NCBI RefSeq assembly: GCF_900155985.1
Contig: NZ_FTMA01000003.1
Coordinates: forward strand, 1 to 64,000
Source: Maribacter ulvicola
GTDB lineage: Bacteria > Bacteroidota > Bacteroidia > Flavobacteriales > Flavobacteriaceae
Reading direction: 5' to 3'
Length of the DNA stretch: 64,000 nt
A program made the position numbers and the translations under genes. Shown here piece by piece: positions 7,729 through 24,952 of the stretch; within the stretch, counting starts at the first letter, position 1; the number at the start of each line of letters is the position of its first letter. The notes below the pieces were generated by a model. The model did not search any database and had not been told where the DNA came from. It saw only the letters and a program-made list of their open reading frames with translations.

Positions 7729-8508
7729 ATGAATACAATTGATATTAGAACGGTAGATGTTGTTCAATATTTACAGCCCTTACGAGAAGGCGGCTCCATG
7801 CCTGCCATTGTAAAGGCCGATGACGATTTTTTGTATGTTCTTAAGTTTAGAGGATCGGGACAAGGTAAAAAATCGCTCATTTCTGAATTTATTGGTGGCG
7901 AGTTGGCGCGGGCCATTGGTTTAAAAGTACCTGAATTGGTCTTCATGAATCTAGAAGATTCTTTTAGACAAACGGAACCTGATGAGGAAATTCAAGATCT
8001 ATTGAAATTTAGCGTAGGGCTCAATCTTGGCCTACACTTTCTTTCTGGTGCCATTACATTTGACCCCTTAATTTCTACGGCAGATGCTATGATAGCTTCC
8101 AAGGTCGTAGTTTTAGATAGCTTGATCAGTAACATAGACCGTACCGCAAAAAATGCAAATCTATTGTTTTGGCATAATGAATTATGGGTAATAGATAATG
8201 GGGCAAGTTTCTACTTTCATCATAATTGGGAGACTTGGGAGAGTCACCTTACCAGAACATTTCCGTTTATAAAAGACCACGTGCTTTTACAACAAGCCAC
8301 TGCCCTACCTGAAGCTGCTGCTGAAATTCAAAAATTTATTACGCTAGAGAAAGTAACTGAAATAGTTTCAAACATACCAGAAGATTGGTTAACAAGTGAG
8401 TCTGATATTCTAAATGCGAATGAAAAAAGAGCAGCTTACATTCAATTTATAACCACTAAGCTATCTATGATTAATGTTTTAGTAAAAGAAGCGGAAGATG
8501 CAAGATAG
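7729..8508 (+). CDS. HipA-like kinase-fold protein
   Basis: A 259-residue protein resembling the kinase core of HipA-type proteins. It has an N-terminal nucleotide-binding segment with YVLKFRGSGQGKKSLISE (Lys near residue 40), a catalytic-loop-like LDSLISNIDRTAKNANLLF near residue 127, and VIDNGASFYFHH near residue 151, which matches the metal-binding D-x-G region. It overlaps the next gene by 11 bases, which is typical of the conserved HipA-like/DUF3037 pair. Whether it phosphorylates a target is unknown. It is smaller than classical HipA (about 440 residues) and has no HipB-like HTH partner. Confidence 0.8.
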   Translation: MNTIDIRTVDVVQYLQPLREGGSMPAIVKADDDFLYVLKFRGSGQGKKSLISEFIGGELARAIGLKVPELVFMNLEDSFRQTEPDEEIQDLLKFSVGLNLGLHFLSGAITFDPLISTADAMIASKVVVLDSLISNIDRTAKNANLLFWHNELWVIDNGASFYFHHNWETWESHLTRTFPFIKDHVLLQQATALPEAAAEIQKFITLEKVTEIVSNIPEDWLTSESDILNANEKRAAYIQFITTKLSMINVLVKEAEDAR

Positions 8509-8881
8509 ACACACCTTTAAATATGCCATAGTTAGAATTGTACCCAAAGTTGAACGAGAAGAGTTCTTTAATGTAGGTGTGATTTTATTCTGTAAACGAA
8601 CCAAATTTCTAGATATTAAATTTCATATTGATGAGGAAAAATTAAAAGCTTTTTCTCCGGAAATAGAATATGAGATATTAAACGAATATTTAAAAGCTTG
8701 GAAGTTGATATGCGCGGGTCAAGAAACTGGCGGAACTATTGGAAAATTAGATTTAAATGACCGTTTTGGTTGGCTAACTGCTTGCAGAAGTACAGTTATA
8801 CAAAGTTCCACCACCAGATCCGGACTAAGCACAGACCCTAAAAAAGAACTAGAAGATATTTTTAACAAGTATGTTTTATAA
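8498..8881 (+). CDS. DUF3037 family protein
   Basis: A 127-residue cytoplasmic protein. The N-terminus FKYAIVRIVPKVEREEFFNVGVILFC is the hallmark of DUF3037, and the mid-region FGWLTACRSTVIQSSTTRSG also fits. Its start lies inside the 3' end of the HipA-like gene, so the two are co-transcribed and probably work together. The function of DUF3037 is not established. Confidence 0.85.
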   Translation: MQDRHTFKYAIVRIVPKVEREEFFNVGVILFCKRTKFLDIKFHIDEEKLKAFSPEIEYEILNEYLKAWKLICAGQETGGTIGKLDLNDRFGWLTACRSTVIQSSTTRSGLSTDPKKELEDIFNKYVL

Positions 8882-9042: not shown

Positions 9043-10062
9043 ATGGAATCATTTAAACTTCAATCTATTATTCAAGGCATACCTAAAGCCGAACTTCATT
9101 TACATTTAGAAGGTAGCTTTGAACCAGAATTAATGTTCCAAGTTGCAAAGAGAAATAACATCACCCTGCCCTATGATTCAATTGAGTCTGTTAAAGAAGC
9201 TTACAAATTCAATAATTTACAAGAGTTTTTAGATATCTATTATGCGGGTGCGCAAGTGCTATTACATGAACAAGATTTCTTCGATTTAACATGGGCATAT
9301 TTAACCAAGGTACACAGCGAAAATGTAAGGCATGTTGAGGTATTTTTTGATCCCCAAACCCATACCGAAAGAGGTGTTCCATTTGAAGTAATCATTAAAG
9401 GAATTCACCGAGCATTAGAAAAAGGTAAAAATGAATTACATATTTCTTACAAACTAATCATGAGCTACTTGCGCCATTTAAGTGAGGAAGATGCTTTTAA
9501 AACCTTAGAAGCATCATTACCATTTAAAGACATCATTGATGGTGTAGGTTTAGACTCATCAGAAAAGGGAAATCCACCAAGCAAGTTCAAAAATGTATTT
9601 AAAGCATCTGCAATGCAAGGGTATAGATTAGTTGCCCATGCAGGAGAAGAAGGTCCGGCAGCATACATCTGGGAGGCCTTAGACATTTTAAATGTAGCGC
9701 GTATAGATCATGGTAATCGCTGCCTTACAGACAAAGCACTGGTTAAAAGATTGGTTGATGAGAAAATTGCCTTGACCCTCTGCCCTACCAGTAATGTTGC
9801 CTTAAAGGTAATTCAGAAGATGGATGAGCACCCAGTTGCAAAAATGCTTGATAAGGGAATTGTAGCCACCATACACTCAGATGATCCTGCCTATTTTGGT
9901 GGTTATATGAATGAAAACTATTACCAAACTATCACAGCGCTTAATCTAAATTTAAATCATATTAGACAATTAGCCATCAATGCTTTTGAAGCTAGTTGGT
10001 TATCTGCTTCCGAAAAGGAAAAACATATCAATGAAGTAAACAATTACTTTGATTCTATCTGA
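9043..10062 (+). CDS. Adenine deaminase (Add-like, type 2)
   Basis: A 339-residue TIM-barrel amidohydrolase. Zinc and catalytic residues are present: H19-x-H21 (AELHLHLEGS), H199 and E202 (VAHAGEEG), H223 (IDHGNR) and D280-D281 (SDDPAYFGGY). The segment GLDSSEKGNPPSKF around residue 170 is that of the Pseudomonas/fungal-type adenine deaminases rather than true adenosine deaminase. The likely reaction is therefore adenine to hypoxanthine in purine salvage. The 3' end overlaps the convergent kinase gene by 19 bases. Adenosine deaminase is the alternative. Confidence 0.85.
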   Translation: MESFKLQSIIQGIPKAELHLHLEGSFEPELMFQVAKRNNITLPYDSIESVKEAYKFNNLQEFLDIYYAGAQVLLHEQDFFDLTWAYLTKVHSENVRHVEVFFDPQTHTERGVPFEVIIKGIHRALEKGKNELHISYKLIMSYLRHLSEEDAFKTLEASLPFKDIIDGVGLDSSEKGNPPSKFKNVFKASAMQGYRLVAHAGEEGPAAYIWEALDILNVARIDHGNRCLTDKALVKRLVDEKIALTLCPTSNVALKVIQKMDEHPVAKMLDKGIVATIHSDDPAYFGGYMNENYYQTITALNLNLNHIRQLAINAFEASWLSASEKEKHINEVNNYFDSI

Positions 10063-11929: not shown

Positions 11930-12439
11930 TTATAGATTTAATTCTATTCCAAAGTTGATAGTGTTCCACGTACCATTCTTTACTTTTAGACCCGTAAAAG
12001 AAGTATTTATACCGATCAGGTCTGTTACTCGATAACCAATTCTTGGCTTATAATGAAATCCTCCCTTTATTCCCTTACCAATACCAACAGCATAACCTAT
12101 ATCTGCGCCAAGGTATAATTTCTTTATTACATTAAATCGTACAACGCCGGTAATTGGTATGTATTTTGCATCTTTATATTTATAGGTAGCGACAAAACCT
12201 TGTTCTCTTAATGTTACTTTTTCACCCTTAAAAAAAGATAACCCCGTAGCAAAACCTACATCAAACTTATTGGAAACTTCAAATAGATAGGTGGCATCCA
12301 AACCAAAACCTGTTTTAGAAACTTCTTTAGTATCTCCTATTGGCAAGGCTCCGAAAGCGCCTATCTTCAGGTTTCTGTTTTGAGCAAACGATGTTACCCC
12401 TATCAATAAAACTACTACAAAAATCATTGTTTTTTTCAT
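11930..12439 (-). CDS. Outer-membrane beta-barrel protein
   Basis: A 169-residue protein with a signal peptide ending VTSFAQ (cleavage after about residue 19). Short amphipathic beta-strand repeats follow (LKIGAFGALPIG, FDVGFATGLSFF, LYLGADIGYAVG), and the chain ends in NFGIELNL, as expected for a small eight-stranded outer-membrane barrel. Its promoter carries two TTGA-N6-TCAA boxes, so it is probably controlled by the same Crp/Fnr-type factor as the operons at 12965-14689 and 14848-18565. Confidence 0.8.
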   Translation of the reverse strand: MKKTMIFVVVLLIGVTSFAQNRNLKIGAFGALPIGDTKEVSKTGFGLDATYLFEVSNKFDVGFATGLSFFKGEKVTLREQGFVATYKYKDAKYIPITGVVRFNVIKKLYLGADIGYAVGIGKGIKGGFHYKPRIGYRVTDLIGINTSFTGLKVKNGTWNTINFGIELNL

Positions 12440-12467: not shown

Positions 12468-12475
12468 CAAAGGTG
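12468..12475 (-). promoter_or_regulatory. -7-like element (CACCTTTG) of the beta-barrel gene
   Basis: On the minus strand this reads CACCTTTG, keeping the TTTG half of the Bacteroidota TAnnTTTG element. It lies 29.5 bases from the centre of the nearer Crp/Fnr-like box, the same distance as at the two promoters between 14690 and 14848. Confidence 0.5.
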
Positions 12476-12497
12476 TTAATAATGAAAAAACAATTCT

Positions 12498-12511
12498 TTG
12501 ACATAAATCAA
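12498..12511. promoter_or_regulatory. Crp/Fnr-type box TTGACATAAATCAA
   Basis: A near-perfect TTGA-N6-TCAA palindrome, promoter-proximal for the beta-barrel gene. Its centre would sit near -42 relative to the inferred start site, the position of a class II activator. Confidence 0.75.
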
Positions 12512-12545
12512 TTTTGCTAACCTGGACCTATTGAAAGTGATAATT

Positions 12546-12559
12546 TTGACCTAAATCAA
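12546..12559. promoter_or_regulatory. Second Crp/Fnr-type box TTGACCTAAATCAA
   Basis: A second TTGA-N6-TCAA palindrome, centred 48 bases upstream of the first. It may bind a second dimer. The rest of the 12560-12964 interval shows no gene. Confidence 0.65.
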
Positions 12560-12964
12560 AACTTTACTGTTGCTACTATTTTTATTCAATTTTTAAGTTT
12601 AAAATTAGGTTACATTTGGTATGCACATAACTAATGCGGCAGACCTTATGTCGTAATTAAATTATGTACGTAAAATGCAATACGTGCACCTTTCACATAT
12701 CTATGAATATGATATGCAATACAATGATGCTTCAAGAATTAAAATGATGTAGAAATTATAGAAGAAAAATAGCATCTACTATTACTATGAAGATGATTAG
12801 AAACGGTCTATTAATTAAACTACTAACTTTTAGTAATGACCTACTTATTTATAAAATAGAGGCTTATTTTCATAAAACACAAAATAGCTATCTTTATAAA
12901 TAGACATACCCTTTTTTGTGTAGATGTTACTATAAGGTAGCTTGTATAAAAAAACTTAATCTAA

Positions 12965-13189
12965 CTATGTTAGTAAGGTTAAAGCTGTTAAAACCGTCCA
13001 AACGGCAACCATTAACCAATACATTAAAGGAGCGTCTTTCTTTTTTATACTTTCTACAAAATGAATTTCTCCTGTAACAATCACATTCAGTAGCCCAAGA
13101 GCTACAATTAATGCCCAGAACCAATTCCAATCGTAAATAATAGCCAATACCATTAAAATAAGAGCTACTATAGTTTTCCAATACCTCAA
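12965..13189 (-). CDS. Small two-helix-plus membrane protein
   Basis: A 74-residue hydrophobic protein with segments at about 5-20, 24-40 and 55-73. The pattern DWNWFWALIVALGLLN..GEIHFVE..APLMYWLMVAVWTV aligns with the C-terminal part of the 113-residue protein at 14042-14383, so the two are paralogues. It starts 1 base from the preceding gene and is the last gene of a leftward operon of four membrane proteins. The family is not recognised. Confidence 0.65.
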   Translation of the reverse strand: MRYWKTIVALILMVLAIIYDWNWFWALIVALGLLNVIVTGEIHFVESIKKKDAPLMYWLMVAVWTVLTALTLLT

Positions 13190-13190
13190 C

Positions 13191-14036
13191 TTAAATCGTT
13201 TTTAATCTTGAACTAATTTCACGCAGGCGAATAATTTGTTGAAAAACAATGGGCAACATAAATACACCCCCAGAAAATTCCATTACATACGTTAACACAG
13301 AAAAAATACTACCTGCAGTAGCATTGGCAGCACTGGCTGAAGTATACAACGCAAAAATAGCCAATACAAATAATAAAATTTCAATGATAGAGAAGTTAAT
13401 AGTTTCTAGATCGCTCATTTTTACTAGCCAATTAGCTATATTTTTAAAGTGCCTTAAAATACCTGCTTGCTCCCGTTTTTCTAAAATATTAATTCGATGT
13501 TCCAACTCATCATTTAAACCAATGTTATAGTTATATATTTTTTTTGTGCTCAAGATATAAATCAAAATAATAATTAGAATAGAAATTAGGCATCCGCTAA
13601 AAATCCAAACATCGAAAAAGGCCAGCATTACAAGTGCTCCAATAACACTAATTGTTGATGTAAAAGCCTGTGTAATGTCGTGTTCAAAAAAATCAATCAA
13701 TTCTTTGACCAAGGCACTTCTGGCTGCAATAGAAGAAACCTGAACTTTTTTTACATTTTGAATATCAGCAATTTCAGATGCTACATTCGTATAAATGGCA
13801 GTATATGCCGGGGTATCATAATAGCGCCGTAAAGTACCTAATATAAAACCTACGCAATATAATATGCAAAACAACCACAAACCATCTTTGGCACCATTTA
13901 TAAGGTCATTTATAGCCATACCCAGTACTAAAGGTTGCAATACCTTGGCAACGTTTTCTAATACCAACAATAAAAAGGTTAAAGAAATTTTCCATTTATA
14001 TTGCTTAAAAATAGACTTAATTGAAAAATCGATCAT
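13191..14036 (-). CDS. ABC transporter six-TM domain protein without ATPase
   Basis: A 281-residue protein with the six hydrophobic segments of an ABC-exporter membrane domain (about 15-35, 48-65, 125-145, 148-168, 222-240 and 250-270) and a coupling-helix-like AARSALVKELIDFFEHD. The chain ends right after the sixth helix, so it has no nucleotide-binding domain of its own. No ATPase gene is in the operon. It may borrow an ATPase or have lost transport function. It sits between two paralogous small membrane proteins, 5 bases and 1 base away. Confidence 0.75.
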   Translation of the reverse strand: MIDFSIKSIFKQYKWKISLTFLLLVLENVAKVLQPLVLGMAINDLINGAKDGLWLFCILYCVGFILGTLRRYYDTPAYTAIYTNVASEIADIQNVKKVQVSSIAARSALVKELIDFFEHDITQAFTSTISVIGALVMLAFFDVWIFSGCLISILIIILIYILSTKKIYNYNIGLNDELEHRINILEKREQAGILRHFKNIANWLVKMSDLETINFSIIEILLFVLAIFALYTSASAANATAGSIFSVLTYVMEFSGGVFMLPIVFQQIIRLREISSRLKTI

Positions 14037-14041
14037 AATTA

Positions 14042-14383
14042 TTAGTATTGTGTAAAGTCAATGAACAATGTTGATAAAGAGAACAAAGACATGATAATCC
14101 AGCTAATCACAATTGCCCAAAATAAAATTGGATTATTATCGCGTTCTACCGGGTCTATAAAGTAGGTTACCCCTCTAAATATATCTGGTATTACCCAATA
14201 CAAGAATAAAATTCCCCAAGCCCATTGCCAATCCATGATAAAAATGATATACACACCGATCAATGCAAGAATAGGACGCCATTGAAAATTCCTTTTCGTT
14301 TTATCGGAAAAAGAAGTCGACTTCTTTTTTTTGTGTTTGCTTTCTCTCCTTATTAAATTTCTTAATTGTTCTGATTTTACCAT
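14042..14383 (-). CDS. Small membrane protein, paralogue of 12965-13189
   Basis: A 113-residue protein. A basic soluble N-terminus (KHKKKKS and nearby residues 5-30) is followed by three hydrophobic segments at about 37-50, 53-72 and 86-108. It shares MDWQWAWGILFLYWVIP..IFRGVTYFID..NPILFWAIVISW with the 74-residue protein at the other end of the operon. It lies 5 bases upstream of the ABC-like gene and 12 bases downstream of the DUF6787-like gene. Function unknown. Confidence 0.65.
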   Translation of the reverse strand: MVKSEQLRNLIRRESKHKKKKSTSFSDKTKRNFQWRPILALIGVYIIFIMDWQWAWGILFLYWVIPDIFRGVTYFIDPVERDNNPILFWAIVISWIIMSLFSLSTLFIDFTQY

Positions 14384-14395
14384 TCTATAATATAT

Positions 14396-14689
14396 TTAAA
14401 TAGTTAAACCAAACCTACTTAACATCTTCTTTTCCATAGCCCAGAAAAATTTAAACTGGCCAAACAACCAACCATATAACACTAAAAACAATTGATAAAA
14501 AACAAAGCTTAAAACACAAAAAATAGGGTAATAAATGTATGCATTTAGGTTTTCTAAAGTAATACCTAAAAGTTTTAAAATTGGTCTTCCGATCACAATT
14601 GACGAGGATCCTGTAATGGAAAAAACAAAAAAGATGATTAGTAGTTGCCAAGGTTTTTCAATATTCCATCGTATCATTAATTTCTTCAT
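14396..14689 (-). CDS. DUF6787-like membrane protein
   Basis: A 97-residue protein with two hydrophobic segments (about 17-40 and 50-75) and a C-terminal GWLFGQFKFFWAMEKKMLSRFG. This arrangement resembles DUF6787 proteins of Bacteroidota as I remember them. It is the first gene of the leftward four-gene operon. Its start codon lies 23 bases downstream of a TAGATTTG element and 53 bases from a perfect TTGATTTAAATCAA palindrome. Function unknown. Confidence 0.7.
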   Translation of the reverse strand: MKKLMIRWNIEKPWQLLIIFFVFSITGSSSIVIGRPILKLLGITLENLNAYIYYPIFCVLSFVFYQLFLVLYGWLFGQFKFFWAMEKKMLSRFGLTI

Positions 14690-14711
14690 ATACTTAGTTT
14701 TTAAGATACCG

Positions 14712-14719
14712 CAAATCTA
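14712..14719 (-). promoter_or_regulatory. -7 element TAGATTTG of the leftward membrane operon
   Basis: This matches the Bacteroidota -7 consensus TAnnTTTG on the minus strand. The centre of the palindrome at 14742-14755 is 29.5 bases upstream of it. Confidence 0.7.
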
Positions 14720-14741
14720 AAACCTGCTGAAAAACTTGGGT

Positions 14742-14755
14742 TTGATTTAAATCAA
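14742..14755. promoter_or_regulatory. Perfect FNR-type palindrome TTGATTTAAATCAA
   Basis: This is a perfect 14-base palindrome matching the FNR consensus TTGAT-N4-ATCAA. It would be centred close to -42 of the leftward operon. The regulator at 18617-19180 carries an ETLSR recognition helix that fits such a site. Confidence 0.85.
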
Positions 14756-14786
14756 AAAGAACGAAACTTCACATTAAAAATAGTTT

Positions 14787-14800
14787 TTGACATAGGTCAA
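14787..14800. promoter_or_regulatory. Crp/Fnr-type box TTGACATAGGTCAA
   Basis: A TTGA-N6-TCAA palindrome serving the rightward operon. Its centre is 29.5 bases upstream of the TAGATTTG at 14823-14830, mirroring the leftward promoter exactly. Confidence 0.8.
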
Positions 14801-14822
14801 AAAAAAGCACCTACCCTCATTA

Positions 14823-14830
14823 TAGATTTG
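14823..14830 (+). promoter_or_regulatory. -7 element TAGATTTG of the rightward operon
   Basis: This matches TAnnTTTG and is identical to the leftward promoter's element. It lies 17 bases before the first start codon of the rightward operon. Confidence 0.7.
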
Positions 14831-14847: not shown

Positions 14848-15237
14848 ATGAAAAAACAAGTTTGTGCAATGCTATTAACAATCATGTTCTCCTGCTCTAA
14901 AAATACGACAGAGCTAGTGGGAACTTGGCAAGTTAAAAGTAAATACTACAAGGCTACTTATGCCATAATGGAGGAGAACGATTCTATTAAGGCCAAAGTG
15001 CTCTATTACAATGATGGCACTACTATAATAAGAAAGAAAGATAAGAAAGAATATTATGTCTTTGAAAACCTAAAACCATCTAAAAACCAATATATGGACG
15101 CTGTTTCCGGAGCAACAACAACCAATGAAAACAAACCCAATATAGCACTACAACCCATACATAAGGATACTTTAAAAGTAACTACATATATAAGAAACAA
15201 ACCATTAAATGAGATTTGGATTAGAATTAATAATTAA
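14848..15237 (+). CDS. Small hypothetical lipoprotein, first gene of the redox-type operon
   Basis: A 129-residue protein with a lipoprotein signal (MKKQVCAMLLTIMFSC, Cys at residue 16). A mature domain beginning ELVGTWQVKSKYYKATY suggests a lipocalin-like or DUF2147-like beta-barrel fold, but no family is certain. It is followed after 9 bases by the next gene. An FNR-type box and -7 element sit directly upstream. Confidence 0.65.
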   Translation: MKKQVCAMLLTIMFSCSKNTTELVGTWQVKSKYYKATYAIMEENDSIKAKVLYYNDGTTIIRKKDKKEYYVFENLKPSKNQYMDAVSGATTTNENKPNIALQPIHKDTLKVTTYIRNKPLNEIWIRINN

Positions 15238-16417: not shown

Positions 16418-16780
16418 ATGCAAAAACATATTTTTAAAATTGTATTACTAGCTCTTGTTTTAGCGGTAATAAGCTGTACAAAGGCCATCATAGATGAAGG
16501 AGATAAAAGCACATTACCTCCAATAACGAAAACCGTCACCTATGAAGCAGACATTAAGTTAATAATGACCAATAATTGTATTACGTGCCATGCAGGTCCA
16601 GCACCTAATGCCGGGTTAGATTTGTCTAATTATCAAAACACCAAGTATTCAGCAGAGCAAGGTAGTCTTGTTGCTAGAATGAATAGCGCTACAAACCCTA
16701 TGCCACCAAATGGGACATTATCACCACAAACACTTCAAATAATTGATAAGTGGATTACAGATAATCTTCCAGAAAATTAA
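16418..16780 (+). CDS. Single-haem c-type cytochrome lipoprotein
   Basis: A 120-residue protein with a lipoprotein signal (Cys at residue 20) and one haem-attachment site C54-x2-C57-H58 (NNCITCHAG). A Met-Pro-Pro (TNPMPPNG) near residue 94 is a plausible axial ligand. The fold resembles the small cytochrome domains found with planctomycete and Bacteroidota oxidases. It would carry electrons in the periplasm, attached to a membrane. Its presence supports a respiratory or redox role for the operon. Confidence 0.85.
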   Translation: MQKHIFKIVLLALVLAVISCTKAIIDEGDKSTLPPITKTVTYEADIKLIMTNNCITCHAGPAPNAGLDLSNYQNTKYSAEQGSLVARMNSATNPMPPNGTLSPQTLQIIDKWITDNLPEN

Positions 16781-16796
16781 TCTTAATTATTACACT

Positions 16797-17339
16797 ATGA
16801 AATATATAATTCTTCTTATGCTACTTGCATCAAACATAGTAATGGCCCAAAAATACTTTACAAAAACGGGCCTAACCGAATTTAAAGCTTCGGTAGAAAA
16901 TTTTGAGCCTATAGAAGCCAAAAACGAAAGTACCACAGTAATCTTAAATACCGAGACAGGAGCACTTGCTGCATTACTTTTTATAAAGGCGTTTAATTTT
17001 GAAATAGCCTTAATGCAAGAGCATTTTAATGAAAATTATATGGATTCCGATAAGTTTCCAAAAGCTACATTCAAAGGGCTACTAATAGATTTTAACATGA
17101 AAAATTTATCTTCTGAAGAAAAAAAAATAAAACTTAAAGGTACTTTAACCATACGTGGAAAAGATAAAATAATTGATACTACGGTGACGCTAAAAAAAGA
17201 ACAAAATAAAATAGTTTTGACTTCAGAATTTACCGTAAAACCTGAAGAGTTCAATATTGTTATCCCTGGTATTGTTAGAGAAAAAATAGCCAAATCCATC
17301 AACCTAAACTTACATTATGAGTTTGTCGAAAAAAAATAA
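16797..17339 (+). CDS. YceI family protein
   Basis: A 180-residue secreted protein when started at the ATG at 16797, where a signal peptide ends IVMAQ. An upstream in-frame start would overlap the cytochrome gene. The YceI/lipocalin-like fold is indicated by TTVILNTETGALAALLFIKAF, then NYMDSDKFPKATFKG and KGTLTIRGKDKIIDTTV. YceI proteins bind isoprenoid-type lipids in the periplasm; the ligand here is unknown. The 3' end overlaps the next gene by 23 bases. Confidence 0.88.
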   Translation: MKYIILLMLLASNIVMAQKYFTKTGLTEFKASVENFEPIEAKNESTTVILNTETGALAALLFIKAFNFEIALMQEHFNENYMDSDKFPKATFKGLLIDFNMKNLSSEEKKIKLKGTLTIRGKDKIIDTTVTLKKEQNKIVLTSEFTVKPEEFNIVIPGIVREKIAKSINLNLHYEFVEKK

Positions 17340-17706
17340 ACTAGTGCTATTCTTATTTACAATACTACTAATAGCAAGTTATACTGCATACAAATACATC
17401 TATAAACCTCACAAACCTATAGCAGAAAAAGCAGTAGCATTTTCAGGTTCTACAGATAGCTTTTTAGAAATAGTAAAAACAGATGTTGTTAAATGGCAAG
17501 ACGTGGTTGTAGAACTAACAGGAACCATCACTTTAATAGATACAAAAGGTATTATGCTTAATAATAATAATATCTATTGTCAATTAGAGGATCGCACTGC
17601 AATTACAAATTTACAAAAAGGACAAACCCTTACTATTAAGGCAAGAATGATAGGCTATGATGACCTTTTAGAAGAGATAAAATTAGATCAAACCATTATA
17701 AAATAA
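17317..17706 (+). CDS. OB-fold (tRNA_anti-like) membrane-anchored protein
   Basis: A 129-residue protein with one N-terminal membrane helix (about residues 9-27). A small OB-fold domain follows, with WQDVVVELTGTITLIDTKGI then NIYCQLEDRTAITNLQKGQT, as in the tRNA_anti-like family that accompanies YceI and DUF5777 genes in Flavobacteriaceae. No nucleic acid role is implied; it is probably periplasmic. Its start lies inside the yceI gene, so translation is likely coupled. Confidence 0.75.
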   Translation: MSLSKKNKLVLFLFTILLIASYTAYKYIYKPHKPIAEKAVAFSGSTDSFLEIVKTDVVKWQDVVVELTGTITLIDTKGIMLNNNNIYCQLEDRTAITNLQKGQTLTIKARMIGYDDLLEEIKLDQTIIK

Positions 17707-17713
17707 ATACTTA

Positions 17714-18565
17714 ATGAAGCCATATTTATTAGCAATAACCATAATATTTCTAGGGATAAACTCTGTACGTTCACAAGAAGATTTATTAAATGAATTAGAA
17801 CAAGTTACCCAAGAAGAATCTTACGAACAACCCGCTTTTAAGGCGATGAAGATCGGAAACCTACAATCTACTAAAGTTGCTGCTAAAGGTGATATGTATA
17901 TGTATGTTTCGCATCGTTTTGGAACGTTAAAAGATGGATTAACGACCTTTTTTGGTTTTGATAATGCCAATACTAAAATTCAACTGGTGTATGGTATTTA
18001 TGATGGCATTCAAATAGGTTTAGCAAGGGAGTCCATAAGAAAGACATATTCATCACATATCAAAGCAAAAATAATTGGACAATCAAAAGATTTTCCTGTG
18101 AACATTGTAGGGTATGCAACTGCAAATATCAGAACAGATATAAGGAAGCAGCAATATCCCTTATTAGAATTTGGAGATAGAATGAACTATGCAACACAAC
18201 TTTTAATTTCTAAGCGGTTTAGTAATAGTTTCTCTTTTGAACTAGCTCCAACCTACGTAAGGCAAAATTTGGTTTTAGAACCTTTTCAAAAACACGACCA
18301 AGTAGCTTTGGGTGCAGGTGGACGCATGAAGGTAAGCAAGCGTATGTCTGTAAACGTAGATTATGTATATAATCTTAGTAGACACAAAAACTCCATTTAC
18401 AACAATCCGTTAACTTTTGGTTTAGATATTGAAACTGGAGGTCACGTTTTTCAATTACTTTTCTCTAACGCGCAATCAACTAACGAACCAGGATTTATTA
18501 GTAATGCCGAAGGTAAATGGTTTGAAGATGTATTTTTTGGGTTTAATATAGTAAGAGTATTTTAA
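17714..18565 (+). CDS. DUF5777-type outer-membrane beta-barrel protein
   Basis: A 283-residue protein with a signal peptide (cleavage near VRSQ, residue 21). Its strand-rich body includes MYMYVSHRFGTLKDGLTTFFG and VYGIYDGIQIGLARESI. The ending in aromatic residues (FFGFNIVRVF) is typical of outer-membrane barrels. Order and content (cytochrome, YceI, OB-fold, DUF5777) match a recurrent flavobacterial operon. It is the last gene; a bidirectional terminator follows. Confidence 0.8.
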   Translation: MKPYLLAITIIFLGINSVRSQEDLLNELEQVTQEESYEQPAFKAMKIGNLQSTKVAAKGDMYMYVSHRFGTLKDGLTTFFGFDNANTKIQLVYGIYDGIQIGLARESIRKTYSSHIKAKIIGQSKDFPVNIVGYATANIRTDIRKQQYPLLEFGDRMNYATQLLISKRFSNSFSFELAPTYVRQNLVLEPFQKHDQVALGAGGRMKVSKRMSVNVDYVYNLSRHKNSIYNNPLTFGLDIETGGHVFQLLFSNAQSTNEPGFISNAEGKWFEDVFFGFNIVRVF

Positions 18566-18616: not shown

Positions 18617-19180
18617 CTATTTTCCTCTAATTCTACTTAAGGTTTCTTGAGAAATTCCGAGCATAGAAGCTATATGACCCAAATTAGCACGTTGTGTAAT
18701 GGAAGGGAACGCCGTAGTTAATAGTGTATATTTTTCTTTCGCAGATAAAAAATAATAGCCTTTAAAAAAGTCATCAATTAAAGCCATTTGCTCTTCTAAA
18801 ATTAATCTTCCAAAGCGTTCCAAAATTGGATATTTTAGATAAAGTTCTTGCCATTGGTCGTAAGACATTGAAATTAAAATAGATTCTTCTGTGGTTTCAA
18901 TATATTCTGAAGAGGGTTTTCTTAAAATATAACTGTGCCAAGACGTAATCATTGTATTTTCAGGATAAATCCAATAGGTAATATCTTTGCCTTTTTGATA
19001 ATGATAAGTTCTTGCTGTTCCTTTTTGTAAAAAATATAAACGTTCGCAAGTTTCTCCTTCCTTTAAAATAACCTGACCTTTAGAAACACTTTCATTGATT
19101 AATGCTAAAGCCCTAATCTCACTTTCTGCCTCAATAGAAAGGTTAATGTATTTCTGTATGTATAGTATGAATTCATCCAT
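18617..19180 (-). CDS. Crp/Fnr family transcriptional regulator
   Basis: A 187-residue regulator with a cyclic-nucleotide-binding-type barrel (about residues 20-115), a dimer helix (about 120-140) and a C-terminal HTH. The recognition helix SQETLSRI has E179, S182 and R183, the same E-x2-S-R arrangement with which FNR reads TTGAT. Only one Cys (C45) is present, so it lacks the four-cysteine iron-sulfur sensor of classic FNR, and the signal is unknown. It sits next to the two operons whose promoters carry TTGA-N6-TCAA boxes. It is a good candidate for their regulator, though another Fnr elsewhere could do it. Confidence 0.88.
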   Translation of the reverse strand: MDEFILYIQKYINLSIEAESEIRALALINESVSKGQVILKEGETCERLYFLQKGTARTYHYQKGKDITYWIYPENTMITSWHSYILRKPSSEYIETTEESILISMSYDQWQELYLKYPILERFGRLILEEQMALIDDFFKGYYFLSAKEKYTLLTTAFPSITQRANLGHIASMLGISQETLSRIRGK

Positions 19181-20150: not shown

Positions 20151-21074
20151 TTATAATATTTCATAGAGTTTATACTCTCCTGATTTTCCTTTTAATAAGG
20201 TTGTATAAACTTTATATTTCGGGAATTTTTCTTTTATCATTTGATAAGCATCTTCTGAAAACAAAAGCTTAGTTTTAAATAATTTATTAGCCGTTTCTAC
20301 TCTGCTGGCAAAATTAACATTATCTCCTATCACAGCCATCTTTTTCATTGAACCAAAATTTAGAGACCCTACAATTACATTTCCATAGTGAACACCAATT
20401 CTAATTTCATATTTTGTATTAAAATTAGCCATAAGGTAATTATTAAATTTCCTAAGCATGTGATGCATCTCCCTAATAGCCATAGTGGCATCTAAAACTG
20501 AATTACCATTTTCTTTATTTAAACCAAAAATTGCTAAAATTCCATCCCCTGTTACATCACTTATAAAACCATGATTATCTACAATGACCTTATTCATTAT
20601 TTTATAATATCTATTAAGCACATGCATAGTATCATAAGGAGGAAATTTTTCTGCCCATGAGGTATAGTTGACAATATCAGTAAACACCATGGTCAATTTC
20701 TGTTGATTGCCTAAGGCTCCTTTAGAATTCTCGGAAAACTGTTCAAAAATAATTTCTTGATCCAATTCGTCAGAAACTATTCTTCTAATAGAAATATCAC
20801 CTGAGACTTTTGTTTGACACGCTAACCTTACTTCCGAAGGAAAACTTAACTTATCAGCTATGAGTTGTTCTATTTTATTTCTTGTATTACAGTTTTCTAT
20901 CCCTTTAATAACTCGAATTCTACATGTAGAACATTTTCCTGTACCACCGCAAGTATGGGAATGATTAATATGGGCTCTTAAAACAGCCTCTAACACTGTG
21001 TCATCTTCCAAACACTTAATTTCTGTATTCTCTTTAGATAAATAAATTTTATACTGTCTTATTTTTTTAATCAT
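20151..21074 (-). CDS. Ferredoxin-fused class III adenylate/guanylate cyclase
   Basis: A 307-residue cytoplasmic protein. Residues 5-100 form a [2Fe-2S] plant-type ferredoxin domain with C42-x5-C48-x2-C51 and C86. Residues 125-305 form a class III nucleotide cyclase domain with metal-binding D133 (FTDIVNY) and D177 (GDGILAIFG). The transition-state segment is GDNVNFASRVE. The fusion suggests a cyclase controlled by redox state or by oxidation of the cluster; that control is inference. Adenylate versus guanylate specificity is undecided. It lies in a decayed region but is itself intact. Confidence 0.9.
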   Translation of the reverse strand: MIKKIRQYKIYLSKENTEIKCLEDDTVLEAVLRAHINHSHTCGGTGKCSTCRIRVIKGIENCNTRNKIEQLIADKLSFPSEVRLACQTKVSGDISIRRIVSDELDQEIIFEQFSENSKGALGNQQKLTMVFTDIVNYTSWAEKFPPYDTMHVLNRYYKIMNKVIVDNHGFISDVTGDGILAIFGLNKENGNSVLDATMAIREMHHMLRKFNNYLMANFNTKYEIRIGVHYGNVIVGSLNFGSMKKMAVIGDNVNFASRVETANKLFKTKLLFSEDAYQMIKEKFPKYKVYTTLLKGKSGEYKLYEIL

Positions 21075-21733: not shown

Positions 21734-21815
21734 GTACCGGTCATAATTAGAGAATCCGGGCTATTGACCTCCTCCCATATTTAGGTACCGGTCATAATTA
21801 GAGAATCCGGGCTAT
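21714..21815. repeat. 51-bp tandem duplication of an IS terminus
   Basis: Two perfect head-to-tail copies of a 51-bp unit (21714-21764 and 21765-21815). Each starts with TGACCTCCTCCC, the terminal sequence of the adjacent IS3-family element. The inner copy is the true element end; the outer copy is an extra terminus. Confidence 0.95.
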
Positions 21816-22620
21816 TTTCATTCTTTTCGATATACTCGTTGGGGGACATGTCCCCCAACGAGCTGTGCGGTCTAAATACATTATAGTCTTCCCTCCAAAT
21901 ATCGAACTTTTCCTGTGCATCTCCCAAGGAAAAGAACCAATTGGCATTCAAGCATTCGTCCCTGAACGAACCGTTGAAGCTTTCTATAAACGGGTTATCG
22001 GTAGGTTTACCGGGCCTTGAGAAGTCAAGTTCGACATTGTTTTCATAGGCCCATTTGTCCAATACCTTACTGATGAACTCACTTCCATTATCCACTTTGA
22101 CACGCTTTGGCAGCACTTCGTTCCCAAAGGTAATCGCCTCCATAACTTGCACGACATCGCTTCCCTTGAGCGATTTTCCCGCATGGATGGCCAAGCACTT
22201 TCGACTATAGTTATCCACTACAGTTAAAGCCCTGAAACGGTTGCCGTTATAGAACTGGTCGCAGACAAAATCCATGCTCCAACATTCATTTAAACTAGAA
22301 GCGTTGCCCTCGCTTGGTTGTCTATGTGCGGCCGAACGGTTTCGTTTTGGGCGCTTGCTCCTTAAGTTCAGGCCTTCCTCGCAATAGACCCTGTACATGC
22401 GCTTGTGGTTGTCCATGAAGCCTTCCCTCCTTAAAAGGATATGGATCCGCCAAAATCCATAGCGTACCCTGACAGCGGCAATCTCGTTCATACGCATGCG
22501 TAACAGTTTATCGCTGCGCCGTCCCTTGGCCTTGTAGTAGAATACGCTCTTATGCAGCAATACGAGCTTGCAGCAACGCTGAACGGAAATATTGTACTTC
22601 ATCCTGATATTACAGACCAT
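21781..22620 (-). CDS. IS3-family transposase OrfB (integrase core)
   Basis: 279 residues from the in-frame ATG; in the element it is probably made as an OrfAB fusion by -1 frameshifting. An HTH_21-like region (YGFWRIHILLRREG) precedes the rve domain. The catalytic triad is D117 (WSMDF), D177 (VDNGSEF) and E213 (FIESFNG), with 35 residues between the last two, giving DD35E. All catalytic residues are present, so the enzyme could be active. Confidence 0.93.
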   Translation of the reverse strand: MVCNIRMKYNISVQRCCKLVLLHKSVFYYKAKGRRSDKLLRMRMNEIAAVRVRYGFWRIHILLRREGFMDNHKRMYRVYCEEGLNLRSKRPKRNRSAAHRQPSEGNASSLNECWSMDFVCDQFYNGNRFRALTVVDNYSRKCLAIHAGKSLKGSDVVQVMEAITFGNEVLPKRVKVDNGSEFISKVLDKWAYENNVELDFSRPGKPTDNPFIESFNGSFRDECLNANWFFSLGDAQEKFDIWREDYNVFRPHSSLGDMSPNEYIEKNENSPDSLIMTGT

Positions 22621-22653
22621 CCCGCGCTTTCGGGACGGTCTCAGAACTTTTTT
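22615..22653 (-). promoter_or_regulatory. -1 ribosomal frameshift signal between orfA and orfB
   Basis: On the minus strand orfA ends AAA-AAA-AAG-TTC-TGA. The heptamer A-AAA-AAG (22653-22647) is the classic slippery site. Six bases later a hairpin (22640-22615, stem GACCGTCCCG / CGGGATGGTC) could act as stimulator. Slipping back one base enters the orfB frame and bypasses the stop. Confidence 0.85.
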
Positions 22654-22913
22654 TTAAGAACGTCCTGTAAGATCTGTTTGTCCAGGCTCAGGTCGGCCAC
22701 CAGTTTCTTCAACTGCGAGTTCTCCTCCTCGAGGTTCTTCAGCCTGCGCAGTTCCGATACGCCCAGCCCCCCATATTTCTTCTTCCAATTGTAAAAGGTG
22801 GCCTCGCTTACCCCCATCTTACGGCAGACCTCTTGGATACGGGTGCCCGTCTCTACCTGTTTGATCGCAAATACGATCTGCGACTCCGAATACTTTGATC
22901 GTCTCATAAGCAA
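22641..22913 (-). CDS. IS3-family transposase OrfA (HTH)
   Basis: 90 residues with the HTH_Tnp_1 pattern (SESQIVFAIKQVETG then VCRKMGVSEATFYNWKKKYGG). A leucine-zipper-like tail follows (LKNLEEENSQLKKLVADLSL). It ends in Lys-Lys-Lys-Phe at the frameshift site. It binds the IS ends and is fused to OrfB by frameshifting. Confidence 0.93.
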   Translation of the reverse strand: MLMRRSKYSESQIVFAIKQVETGTRIQEVCRKMGVSEATFYNWKKKYGGLGVSELRRLKNLEEENSQLKKLVADLSLDKQILQDVLKKKF

Positions 22914-23584: not shown

Positions 23585-23635
23585 TTTTTTAAGTAGTTTT
23601 TTTACTTACTTTTGGTTTGCTTAATACTCTTTACA

Positions 23636-24952
23636 ATGGCTACATTAAAATTTTACGTTAGGGGCAAACGTAACCCGTCTAAAATTGGGGTACGTTTTAT
23701 GGTTGACGGATCAACAGATTACAGAATAACTACCCCTTTACAAGTCAACCCCCAACACTTCAACAACAATACGGGCAAAATCAAACACCTTGCACACGTC
23801 CAAAATAAGGATGCTTTACAAGGCAACTTAAAGGGTTTGGAAACCTACCTTTTAGACCAGTATAACAGTACGATGGCTAAAGGGGGCATTATAAACTCGC
23901 AATGGCTGCAAAGCTGCATTGATATACATTTTGATTTAATAGAGGTTACAGATAACAACTACCTAGAAAACTATTGCTCACATTATGTAGAAAAATTAAG
24001 GTTAAAAACCAATGACAAAACAGGCGGTTTGGGTGCATCAAAGGCGACCGTAACAAAGTATAATACCATTAAAAAGAAAGTGGCTGAATTTCAACGCCAT
24101 ACCCGTAAAAAGTATCGTTTAACAGATGTAAACCTAAAGTTTCGGGATGCGTTTCTAACCTATCTTTTAGAGGTTGATAAATTAGGGCGTAATACAGCGG
24201 GGCGGTATCTAAAGTTTCTCAAAACCGTTTGTTTGGATGCTCAACGGTCGGGTTTTAAAGTTAGCCCCGAACTATCACAAGTAAAGGGTTTTAGGGTAGA
24301 GGTCAAAAAAATATATCTCAACTTTAAGGAACTAGAACAAATAGAAACAACTAACTACCAAAGCGAACTTTTAGAAAATGCAAAGGACTGGCTAATCATT
24401 GGATGCTATATAGGGCAAAGGGCGGGCGATTTACTGCAATTAACGAACGAAAATTTGAAGACCAACGGTAGACTAGACTTTATAGAGTTGGTACAACAAA
24501 AGACCAAAAAACGGGTTTCTGTTTTAGTCCATCCCAAAGTAAGGGATATACTAGATAAGAGAAACGGACACTTTCCCACGCCATACAGTACCAATATAGG
24601 TAGTGCAATGACCATTTTTAACCGTCTTATTAAAAAAGTTTGTGCCAAAGCCGAACTAAACGAAATAATTGAGGGTGCAAAGGTCAACGAAAAGACCAAC
24701 CGGAAAGAACAGGGTAATTTCCCAAAGTCCAAACTAGTAACCTCCCATATTTGCCGACGTTCTTTTGCTAGTAACTTTTACGGTGATATGCCAACAGCAT
24801 TACTTATTAATGTTACTGGACATTCAACCGAAAAAGAGTTTTTAAACTATATAGGAAAGACTAATACAGACTATGCCGAACAAATGGCAATGTACTGGAA
24901 TATTCAAAGCCAAAAGCAGGAAAAAGAAACCGTTTTAAGGGCAGTTAAATAG
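23636..24952 (+). CDS. Tyrosine recombinase (site-specific integrase)
   Basis: A 438-residue protein from ATG 23636; the longer frame from 23612 starts inside the promoter. An N-terminal arm-binding domain (MATLKFYVRGKRNPSKIGVR) is followed by a SAM-like core-binding domain (about 90-210) and the catalytic domain. The catalytic domain has Arg in IGQRAGDL, His-x-x-Arg in SHICRRSF, GH in NVTGHST and Tyr in EFLNYIG. It would catalyse integration into and excision from tRNA-Ser. The ordering of features fits phage/ICE integrases of Bacteroidota. Confidence 0.93.
   Translation: MATLKFYVRGKRNPSKIGVRFMVDGSTDYRITTPLQVNPQHFNNNTGKIKHLAHVQNKDALQGNLKGLETYLLDQYNSTMAKGGIINSQWLQSCIDIHFDLIEVTDNNYLENYCSHYVEKLRLKTNDKTGGLGASKATVTKYNTIKKKVAEFQRHTRKKYRLTDVNLKFRDAFLTYLLEVDKLGRNTAGRYLKFLKTVCLDAQRSGFKVSPELSQVKGFRVEVKKIYLNFKELEQIETTNYQSELLENAKDWLIIGCYIGQRAGDLLQLTNENLKTNGRLDFIELVQQKTKKRVSVLVHPKVRDILDKRNGHFPTPYSTNIGSAMTIFNRLIKKVCAKAELNEIIEGAKVNEKTNRKEQGNFPKSKLVTSHICRRSFASNFYGDMPTALLINVTGHSTEKEFLNYIGKTNTDYAEQMAMYWNIQSQKQEKETVLRAVK

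Follow-up and report, generated by a model that had tools for sequence, protein, structure and literature searches.

A Crp/Fnr-type box at a fixed distance from the promoters of an envelope gene cluster in Maribacter ulvicola and related Bacteroidota, and its probable regulator

What does it mean that three promoters of one gene cluster carry an FNR-type palindrome at exactly the same distance from the -7 element? The question is raised by a window of 64,000 nucleotides from Maribacter ulvicola (NCBI RefSeq assembly GCF_900155985.1, contig NZ_FTMA01000003.1, positions 1 to 64,000 of the forward strand), in which TTGA-N6-TCAA boxes precede a leftward operon for membrane proteins, a rightward operon that includes the gene of P387, a lipoprotein of 387 residues, and the gene of an outer-membrane beta-barrel protein. 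Comparison with related loci makes it very probable that the three promoters and their relatives form a genuine control circuit. The Crp/Fnr protein with an ETLSR recognition helix that is encoded nearby is the most likely regulator.

Direct reading and a pattern search located palindromes at 12498-12511, 12546-12559, 14742-14755 and 14787-14800. The box of the leftward operon (14742-14755, minus strand) faces a -7 element, TAGATTTG, at 14719-14712 of the same strand, and that of the rightward operon (14787-14800, plus strand) faces the same TAGATTTG at 14823-14830; these four features were found both by direct reading and by the genome pattern search, and the two boxes also by a motif scan of the order. 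The beta-barrel gene has its box at 12498-12511 and its -7 element, CACCTTTG, at 12475-12468, both on the minus strand and the latter read directly. From the end of the box to the -7 element there are 22 bases at all three promoters, and from the box centre to the first -7 base there are 29.5; the latter spacing, given in a preliminary description of this DNA, proved exact when the coordinates and the gap were re-read. The same description had listed the three promoter boxes correctly and overlooked the second box of the beta-barrel gene (12546-12559, minus strand), which lies in tandem 48 bp further upstream, at about -89.5. Two boxes 48 bp apart were found at all four loci with that gene (the window and the related loci L111, L112 and L115).

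The sigma-A box of F. psychrophilum is TAnnTTTG at -12 to -5 (PMC9723704, accessible part), and because the palindromes are centered 29.5 bases upstream of a -7 box that starts at -12, their centre would fall at -41.5. CACCTTTG departs from TAnnTTTG at its first base; at the same position GACCTTTG is found in L115 and TAAATTTG in L111 and L112. Class II activation by FNR and CRP of Escherichia coli takes place from a centre at -41.5, over the -35 region. The idea, already put forward in the preliminary description, that the equal spacing reflects class II activation near -42 is thus supported by the flavobacterial -7 coordinates and by the peak at gap 22 described below. Bacteroides promoters possess a TTTG element at -33 (PMC2483708, accessible part), and such a TTG is absent here, occurring at 0-2 of 64 sites for each spacer of 1-19 bases; its lack would agree with an activator-dependent class II promoter. 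The regulator might instead act as a repressor, or in both ways, at these sites, given that the boxes sit between divergent operons and that the activator role assigned to them is read from the sequence. A repressor, however, needs no single fixed spacing, while the exact placement at -41.5 and the missing -33 TTG are what an activator needs, as is the arrangement at some loci, such as L111 and L114, where a single inter-operon box is flanked by -7-like elements on both sides. Repression or dual control therefore appears quite unlikely.

Could the equal spacing be a coincidence of AT-rich intergenic DNA? The number of palindromes in the window alone is near chance and unremarkable, with six found against a mean of 2.55 in shuffled sequences (6 of 100 shuffles reach six), and this is the one point in favor of coincidence. 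A scan of the source genome (4.5 Mb in 24 contigs) for the box at the given spacing, which the preliminary description had proposed, gave a divided answer. The strict pattern, the box plus TAnnTTTG at gaps 7-37, matched 14 times, three of them at gap 22, compared with nine matches of the reversed pattern, and is only modest evidence; matches to TTGAYNNNNRTCAA numbered 60, against 25 for its reversed form. A refined motif, TTTGAYNTANRTCAAA-N22-AnnTTTG, built on relatives at sites chosen with the TTGA-N6-TCAA core, found six sites at up to one mismatch, all confined to two gene clusters, i.e., the three promoters of the window and three others at C5:1199661-1202823 (locus L036), while at up to two mismatches it found nine sites versus four in the reversed control. 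The earlier impression that the three promoters belong to one regulon is strengthened by these three further promoters elsewhere in the same genome. The decisive evidence for the spacing comes from tests across relatives, not from the source genome alone.

A search with P387 (15247-16410) and three of its relatives against one genome per species yielded 32 loci amounting to 577,224 bases, among which that of Mesonia algae is the nearest named one (80% identity over P387). These loci contain 77 palindromes of the form TTGAYNNNNRTCAA. When NAnnTTTG was counted around them on both strands at gaps 0-60, with 0.29 expected per gap, gap 22 accounted for 58 elements and gap 57 for 18, with no other gap exceeding two. 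The second peak comes from divergent pairs whose two boxes are 35 bp apart: seen from the partner box, the gap becomes 22 plus 35, or 57. The box-to-box distance between the divergent operons is 35 bp in 10 loci, 45 bp in the window and in L100 from Mesonia algae DSM 15361, 32 bp in L103 and 68 bp in L122. A strict automatic test for a box at the operon start, applied to 33 loci (the 32 and the window), was passed by 23. If one mismatch is allowed, L114 and L118 pass as well; L123 has its box at 9474, and L116 has one ahead of the first membrane gene, so that a box at gap 22 is found in 27 of the 28 Bacteroidota operons, window included, with L119 as the exception. None of the five P387 relatives from Planctomycetota (two), Verrucomicrobia, Opitutales and Lentisphaerales (L124-L127 and L131) has the box in this test. 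In an order-wide set of 196 genomes, strong boxes, defined by the extended motif together with a promoter, numbered 36 in 21 genomes, and zero in the reversed control. With 58 elements against 0.29 expected at the related loci and 36 against none in the order, coincidence is refuted for practical purposes. The spacing peak, at loci chosen by P387 as well as at loci chosen by the regulator as described below, is independent of the selection of sites by TTGA-N6-TCAA, and the putative regulon is conserved across the Bacteroidota loci that carry P387.

Which protein would bind the box? The gene at 18617-19180 (minus strand) encodes a Crp/Fnr-type protein of 187 residues that matches a cyclic nucleotide monophosphate (cNMP)-binding domain and ends just past its recognition helix. 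Five cNMP-domain proteins exist in the source genome, but with the regulator as query a search of that genome up to E 10 recovered no protein other than the query. A similar gene stands at the same locus in 19 of the 28 Bacteroidota loci, window included, and four of the nine loci without it are contigs under 8 kb. The helix QETLSR is invariant in all 19 aligned regulators, and the chain stops a few residues later. Arg180 of CRP has been linked with a G as the third base, and its Glu181 with the inner base (PMC1274295, accessible part); the ETLSR protein has Gln and Glu at these positions of the helix, which would fit a TTGA half-site. The protein resembles PDB 3dn7, deposited as a cyclic nucleotide binding regulatory protein, in a full-length profile match (E 4.6e-30) and in the short end after the helix, but differs from it in the helix region (ETLSRIR here, EYLSEIR there); we know of no target of 3dn7.

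The distribution of the gene points in the same direction. P387 is rare in the order (6 of 196 genomes), and matches to the regulator profile above 200 bits occur in exactly five of the 196 genomes, all of which possess P387 and two to five strong boxes and which together hold 17 of the 36; the sixth genome with a P387 relative (G049) has neither such a regulator nor a strong box. In G097 and G203, P387 and the regulator are on different contigs, and a box lies at a distance of 10 and 6 bp, respectively, from the regulator. A regulator-profile match lies within 5 kb of 24 of the 36 strong boxes among the matches listed, and of a 25th (G102) according to a separate reading. In the reverse test, 29 loci picked by regulator score alone held 27 palindromes, around which 11 elements at gap 22 were found in 10 loci and one at most at any other gap, where 0.14 were expected per gap; after removal of the four P387 genomes, the gap-22 element was still present in 6 of 25 loci. 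By the same-locus genes, the co-occurrence above 200 bits and the reverse test, the nearby ETLSR gene, named earlier as the candidate regulator, is the best one.

Another possibility is that the boxes are targets of an FNR-like protein encoded at C9:105614, with an N-terminal CENC and a TESLIR helix, in which case the set would be an oxygen regulon. This protein is a match to the NCBIfam Fnr model at E 1.1e-31, although its 110 bits fall short of the cut-off of 228. It carries Cys residues near its N terminus, its helix likewise presents Glu and Arg where the main contacts are made, and its gene lies beside a cation-transport ATPase gene. Its gene is, however, found within 5 kb of none of the 36 strong boxes (compared by eye), strong boxes are missing from 85 of the 105 genomes in which it has a match, and the boxes track the ETLSR gene, which is a different one. 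Moreover, the box-bearing operons include oxygenase genes, namely those of a Rieske oxygenase and its reductase in the source genome, L103 and L114, and relatives have a fatty-acid hydroxylase family protein in such operons. Rieske oxygenases and proteins of the fatty-acid hydroxylase family need O2. Control by the FNR-like protein is consequently very improbable.

The ETLSR protein itself shares with FNR and CRP the TTGA-N6-TCAA box as candidate target, a helix of the E-x-x-S-R type (present in 19 of 19) and the class II centre, but it ends just past the helix and would work with a Bacteroidota -7 promoter, and the cysteine cluster for a [4Fe-4S] centre is absent. The 19 aligned regulators have no invariant Cys or His; one column with frequent Cys (16 of 19) is the only one of its kind, and because of this an FNR-type cysteine cluster must be lacking. 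The proposal of an oxygen-, NO- or energy-responsive regulon is thus not supported in view of the missing cluster, the oxygenases among the targets and the position of the FNR-like gene away from the strong boxes, and the signal is probably not oxygen. Invariant residues are W70, Y72, W81, E92 and R125. The cAMP pocket of CRP is marked by residues of the GE and RSA type motif, and where such residues would be expected, W70, Y72, W81 and E92 were found by eye; as weak evidence, these sensor-domain residues and the lack of a cysteine cluster and of an invariant His or Cys may point to an organic ligand.

A cyclic nucleotide from a nearby cyclase is one conceivable ligand. The regulator carries the cNMP-binding domain, a gene for a fusion of a 2Fe-2S ferredoxin with a nucleotide cyclase lies 1 kb away (20151-21074), and two small membrane genes of the box-controlled leftward operon of L110 have another cyclase-domain gene (7766-8845) between them. 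A single-query search of the 32 related loci, L036 and the window, however, found no cyclase-like open reading frame in the other loci, and the pocket residues described above appear not to be of the type known for CRP, making this ligand rather improbable. Somewhat better, although still unlikely, is a regulator that senses nitric oxide (NO) or another diatomic gas under nitrosative stress, in the manner of HcpR and DNR. Like the ETLSR protein, these are FNR-like regulators without the FNR cysteine motif, with TTGAC/TTGAT boxes, DNR in particular combining an FNR-type box with the lack of that motif, and TTGACnnnnGTCAA is a predicted HcpR site in two cyanobacteria (PMC1274295, accessible part). 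Haem is bound by Porphyromonas HcpR and PgRsp (PMC12040651, accessible part), and P387, which has a cytochrome c partner, folds into a barrel that resembles nitrobindins (Z about 10) and contains one invariant His, His191. In contrast, the 19 regulators lack an invariant His or Cys and hence a conserved candidate for a haem ligand, and no nor, hcp, nir or nos gene was seen among the box targets that were read, which were not all of them and were not searched for these genes specifically.

The structure models of P387 (15247-16410, plus strand) and of the lipocalin-like lipoprotein lipo129 (14848-15237, plus strand), with mean predicted local distance difference test scores of 87.7 and 82.3, respectively, both contain lipocalin-like barrels. 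That of P387 comprises ten strands in residues 63-199, of the ten-strand calycin type, and residues 51-200 match nitrobindins (3ia8, 2fr2 and 2a13) at Z 9.4-10.1 over 124-134 residues, but two spirocyclases score as high (Z 10.5 and 11.1); lipo129 matches lipocalin and fatty-acid-binding proteins, at best with Z 9.0, near background. P387 differs from nitrobindins, to which it is likened by its modelled fold, in being an exported lipoprotein with an extra C-terminal domain and no sequence match. The family found nothing among PDB sequences at E up to 1, and the barrel domain gave nine chance-level matches there (best E 0.74), none to a nitrobindin, while in Pfam it matched no nitrobindin: DUF4948 was hit by 5 of the 31 members, at a best E of 0.002, and three further hits came from one member each. 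His191 is invariant in 31 of 31 members, yet it alternates with variable polar residues and may face outward; it was rejected as proof of an NO function. A search of PMC7915275 for named His residues found none.

The remaining genes under the boxes give some idea of what is controlled. In the leftward operon (minus strand), the first gene encodes a DUF6787 protein (14396-14689, domain match), followed by a small membrane protein without a Pfam match (14042-14383), a protein of 281 residues with an ABC transporter membrane region (13191-14036, PF13748) and, by locus comparison, another small membrane protein that resembles the one at 14042-14383 (12965-13189). No ATP-binding domain was matched in 13191-14036 or the other operon genes scanned. 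In the rightward operon (plus strand), lipo129, as the first gene, and P387 are followed by a mono-haem cytochrome c (16418-16780, Pfam matches below cut-off), a YceI-family protein (16797-17339, start inferred at the second Met), a small exported protein (17317-17706, without a Pfam match, for which an OB label is a guess) and a DUF5777 barrel protein (17714-18565, domain match). The outer-membrane beta-barrel gene lies at 11930-12439 (minus strand; PF13505 below its cut-off). In the second cluster of the genome, L036, which is the one studied of 18 stretches (L036-L053), the putative targets are a fusion of a P387 paralogue with a cytochrome c domain (L036:7723-9171), of which the window has the cytochrome as a separate gene, a protein of 153 residues, and an SMR transporter, whose gene comes ahead of those for the Rieske oxygenase and reductase.

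Two side observations may be added. Palindromes of the form xTGAY-N4-RTCAx, with other outer bases and the same gap of 22, occur in L073, L074, L069 and L078 (in the source genome C4:113156-113229, C2:108326 and C5:9158), that at C2:108326 being just behind a gene for a response-regulator/Crp fusion. Such palindromes could serve a different Crp/Fnr protein as its box. Near the cluster, IS3-like transposase genes and a tyrosine recombinase are found at 21781-22913 and 23612-24952.

Taken together, we consider it likely that the ETLSR protein is a ligand-sensing class II activator, acting at -41.5, of a periplasmic module that binds and oxidizes a lipophile. The site, its spacing, its conservation and its co-occurrence with the regulator gene are read directly from the sequence, and from these we infer regulator binding, activation, signal and module function. 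As a one-component activator of the Crp/Fnr superfamily, the protein would bind TTTTGAYNTARRTCAAAA as a dimer centered at -41.5 and bring the sigma-A RNA polymerase of Bacteroidota to promoters with a -7 element but no -33 TTG, as class II CRP/FNR activators do. It would drive the leftward membrane operon, the rightward lipoprotein/cytochrome/YceI/DUF5777 operon, the beta-barrel gene through the tandem boxes at about -41.5 and -89.5, and the second cluster with its P387-cytochrome c fusion, 153-residue protein, SMR transporter, Rieske oxygenase and reductase. What the protein senses in its cNMP-type pocket would probably be a small organic molecule and not O2, and the regulon would most likely bind, oxidize and export a lipophilic compound. 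Several observations weigh against this account. Ten of the 33 loci failed the strict operon-start test, namely the five non-Bacteroidota loci, the four rescued as described above, and L119, and under a looser motif rule only 11 of 22 matches in 60 relatives were at gap 22, the others being at gaps 12-29, with three at 23. For 12 of the 36 strong boxes, the matches listed include no regulator at a distance of 5 kb or less, G102 excepted on separate reading, and 19 of the 29 regulator-chosen loci lack a box at gap 22. Scored regulator matches reach at least 17 per genome, and such paralogues may bind other sites or cross-talk. The wide regulator family has a match in 107 of the 196 genomes, 87 of them without a strong box, and genome-level co-occurrence with it was dropped as an argument for want of discrimination. 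Finally, a module binding and oxidizing a lipophilic compound is a best guess drawn solely from folds and family names.

In genomes that lack P387, strong boxes precede a small protein with a flavodoxin-fold oxidoreductase after it, an MFS transporter, a BAAT/hydrolase-type protein, DUF2798 followed by a regulator, DHBP synthase, a DUF418 protein and some unassigned genes; the strong box of G148 resembles chance, and an earlier, looser motif also matched a zinc-type dehydrogenase in G005. In L141-L144, from one family of the order, the box stands 14 bp after a regulator gene and ahead of a protein of about 100 residues and a flavodoxin-fold oxidoreductase. This spread of target types suits a family of local ligand-responsive activators. 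It is an even call whether short ETLSR Crp/Fnr proteins, with at least 17 relatives in some flavobacterial genomes, are in general local ligand-sensing class II activators with one box and the -41.5 position on Bacteroidota promoters in common, this one running an as yet undescribed module of the envelope in which lipocalin-type lipoproteins, cytochrome c and oxygenases handle a lipophilic compound. The top-ranked part of the literature search results, with most subscription journals outside its scope, contained no account of this regulon; searches on DUF5777 and on Flavobacterium Crp Fnr mutants found nothing, and one on the Bacteroidetes Crp Fnr motif gave nothing relevant by title listing. 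To our knowledge, activator positions on Bacteroidota promoters are poorly defined. A box, its exact position and its regulator that can all be read from the sequence would provide a rule by which many Crp/Fnr genes without an assigned function may be annotated, and the tying of P387, lipo129, DUF5777, DUF6787, YceI, cytochrome c and Rieske oxygenase into one co-regulated module would make the function of these proteins testable.

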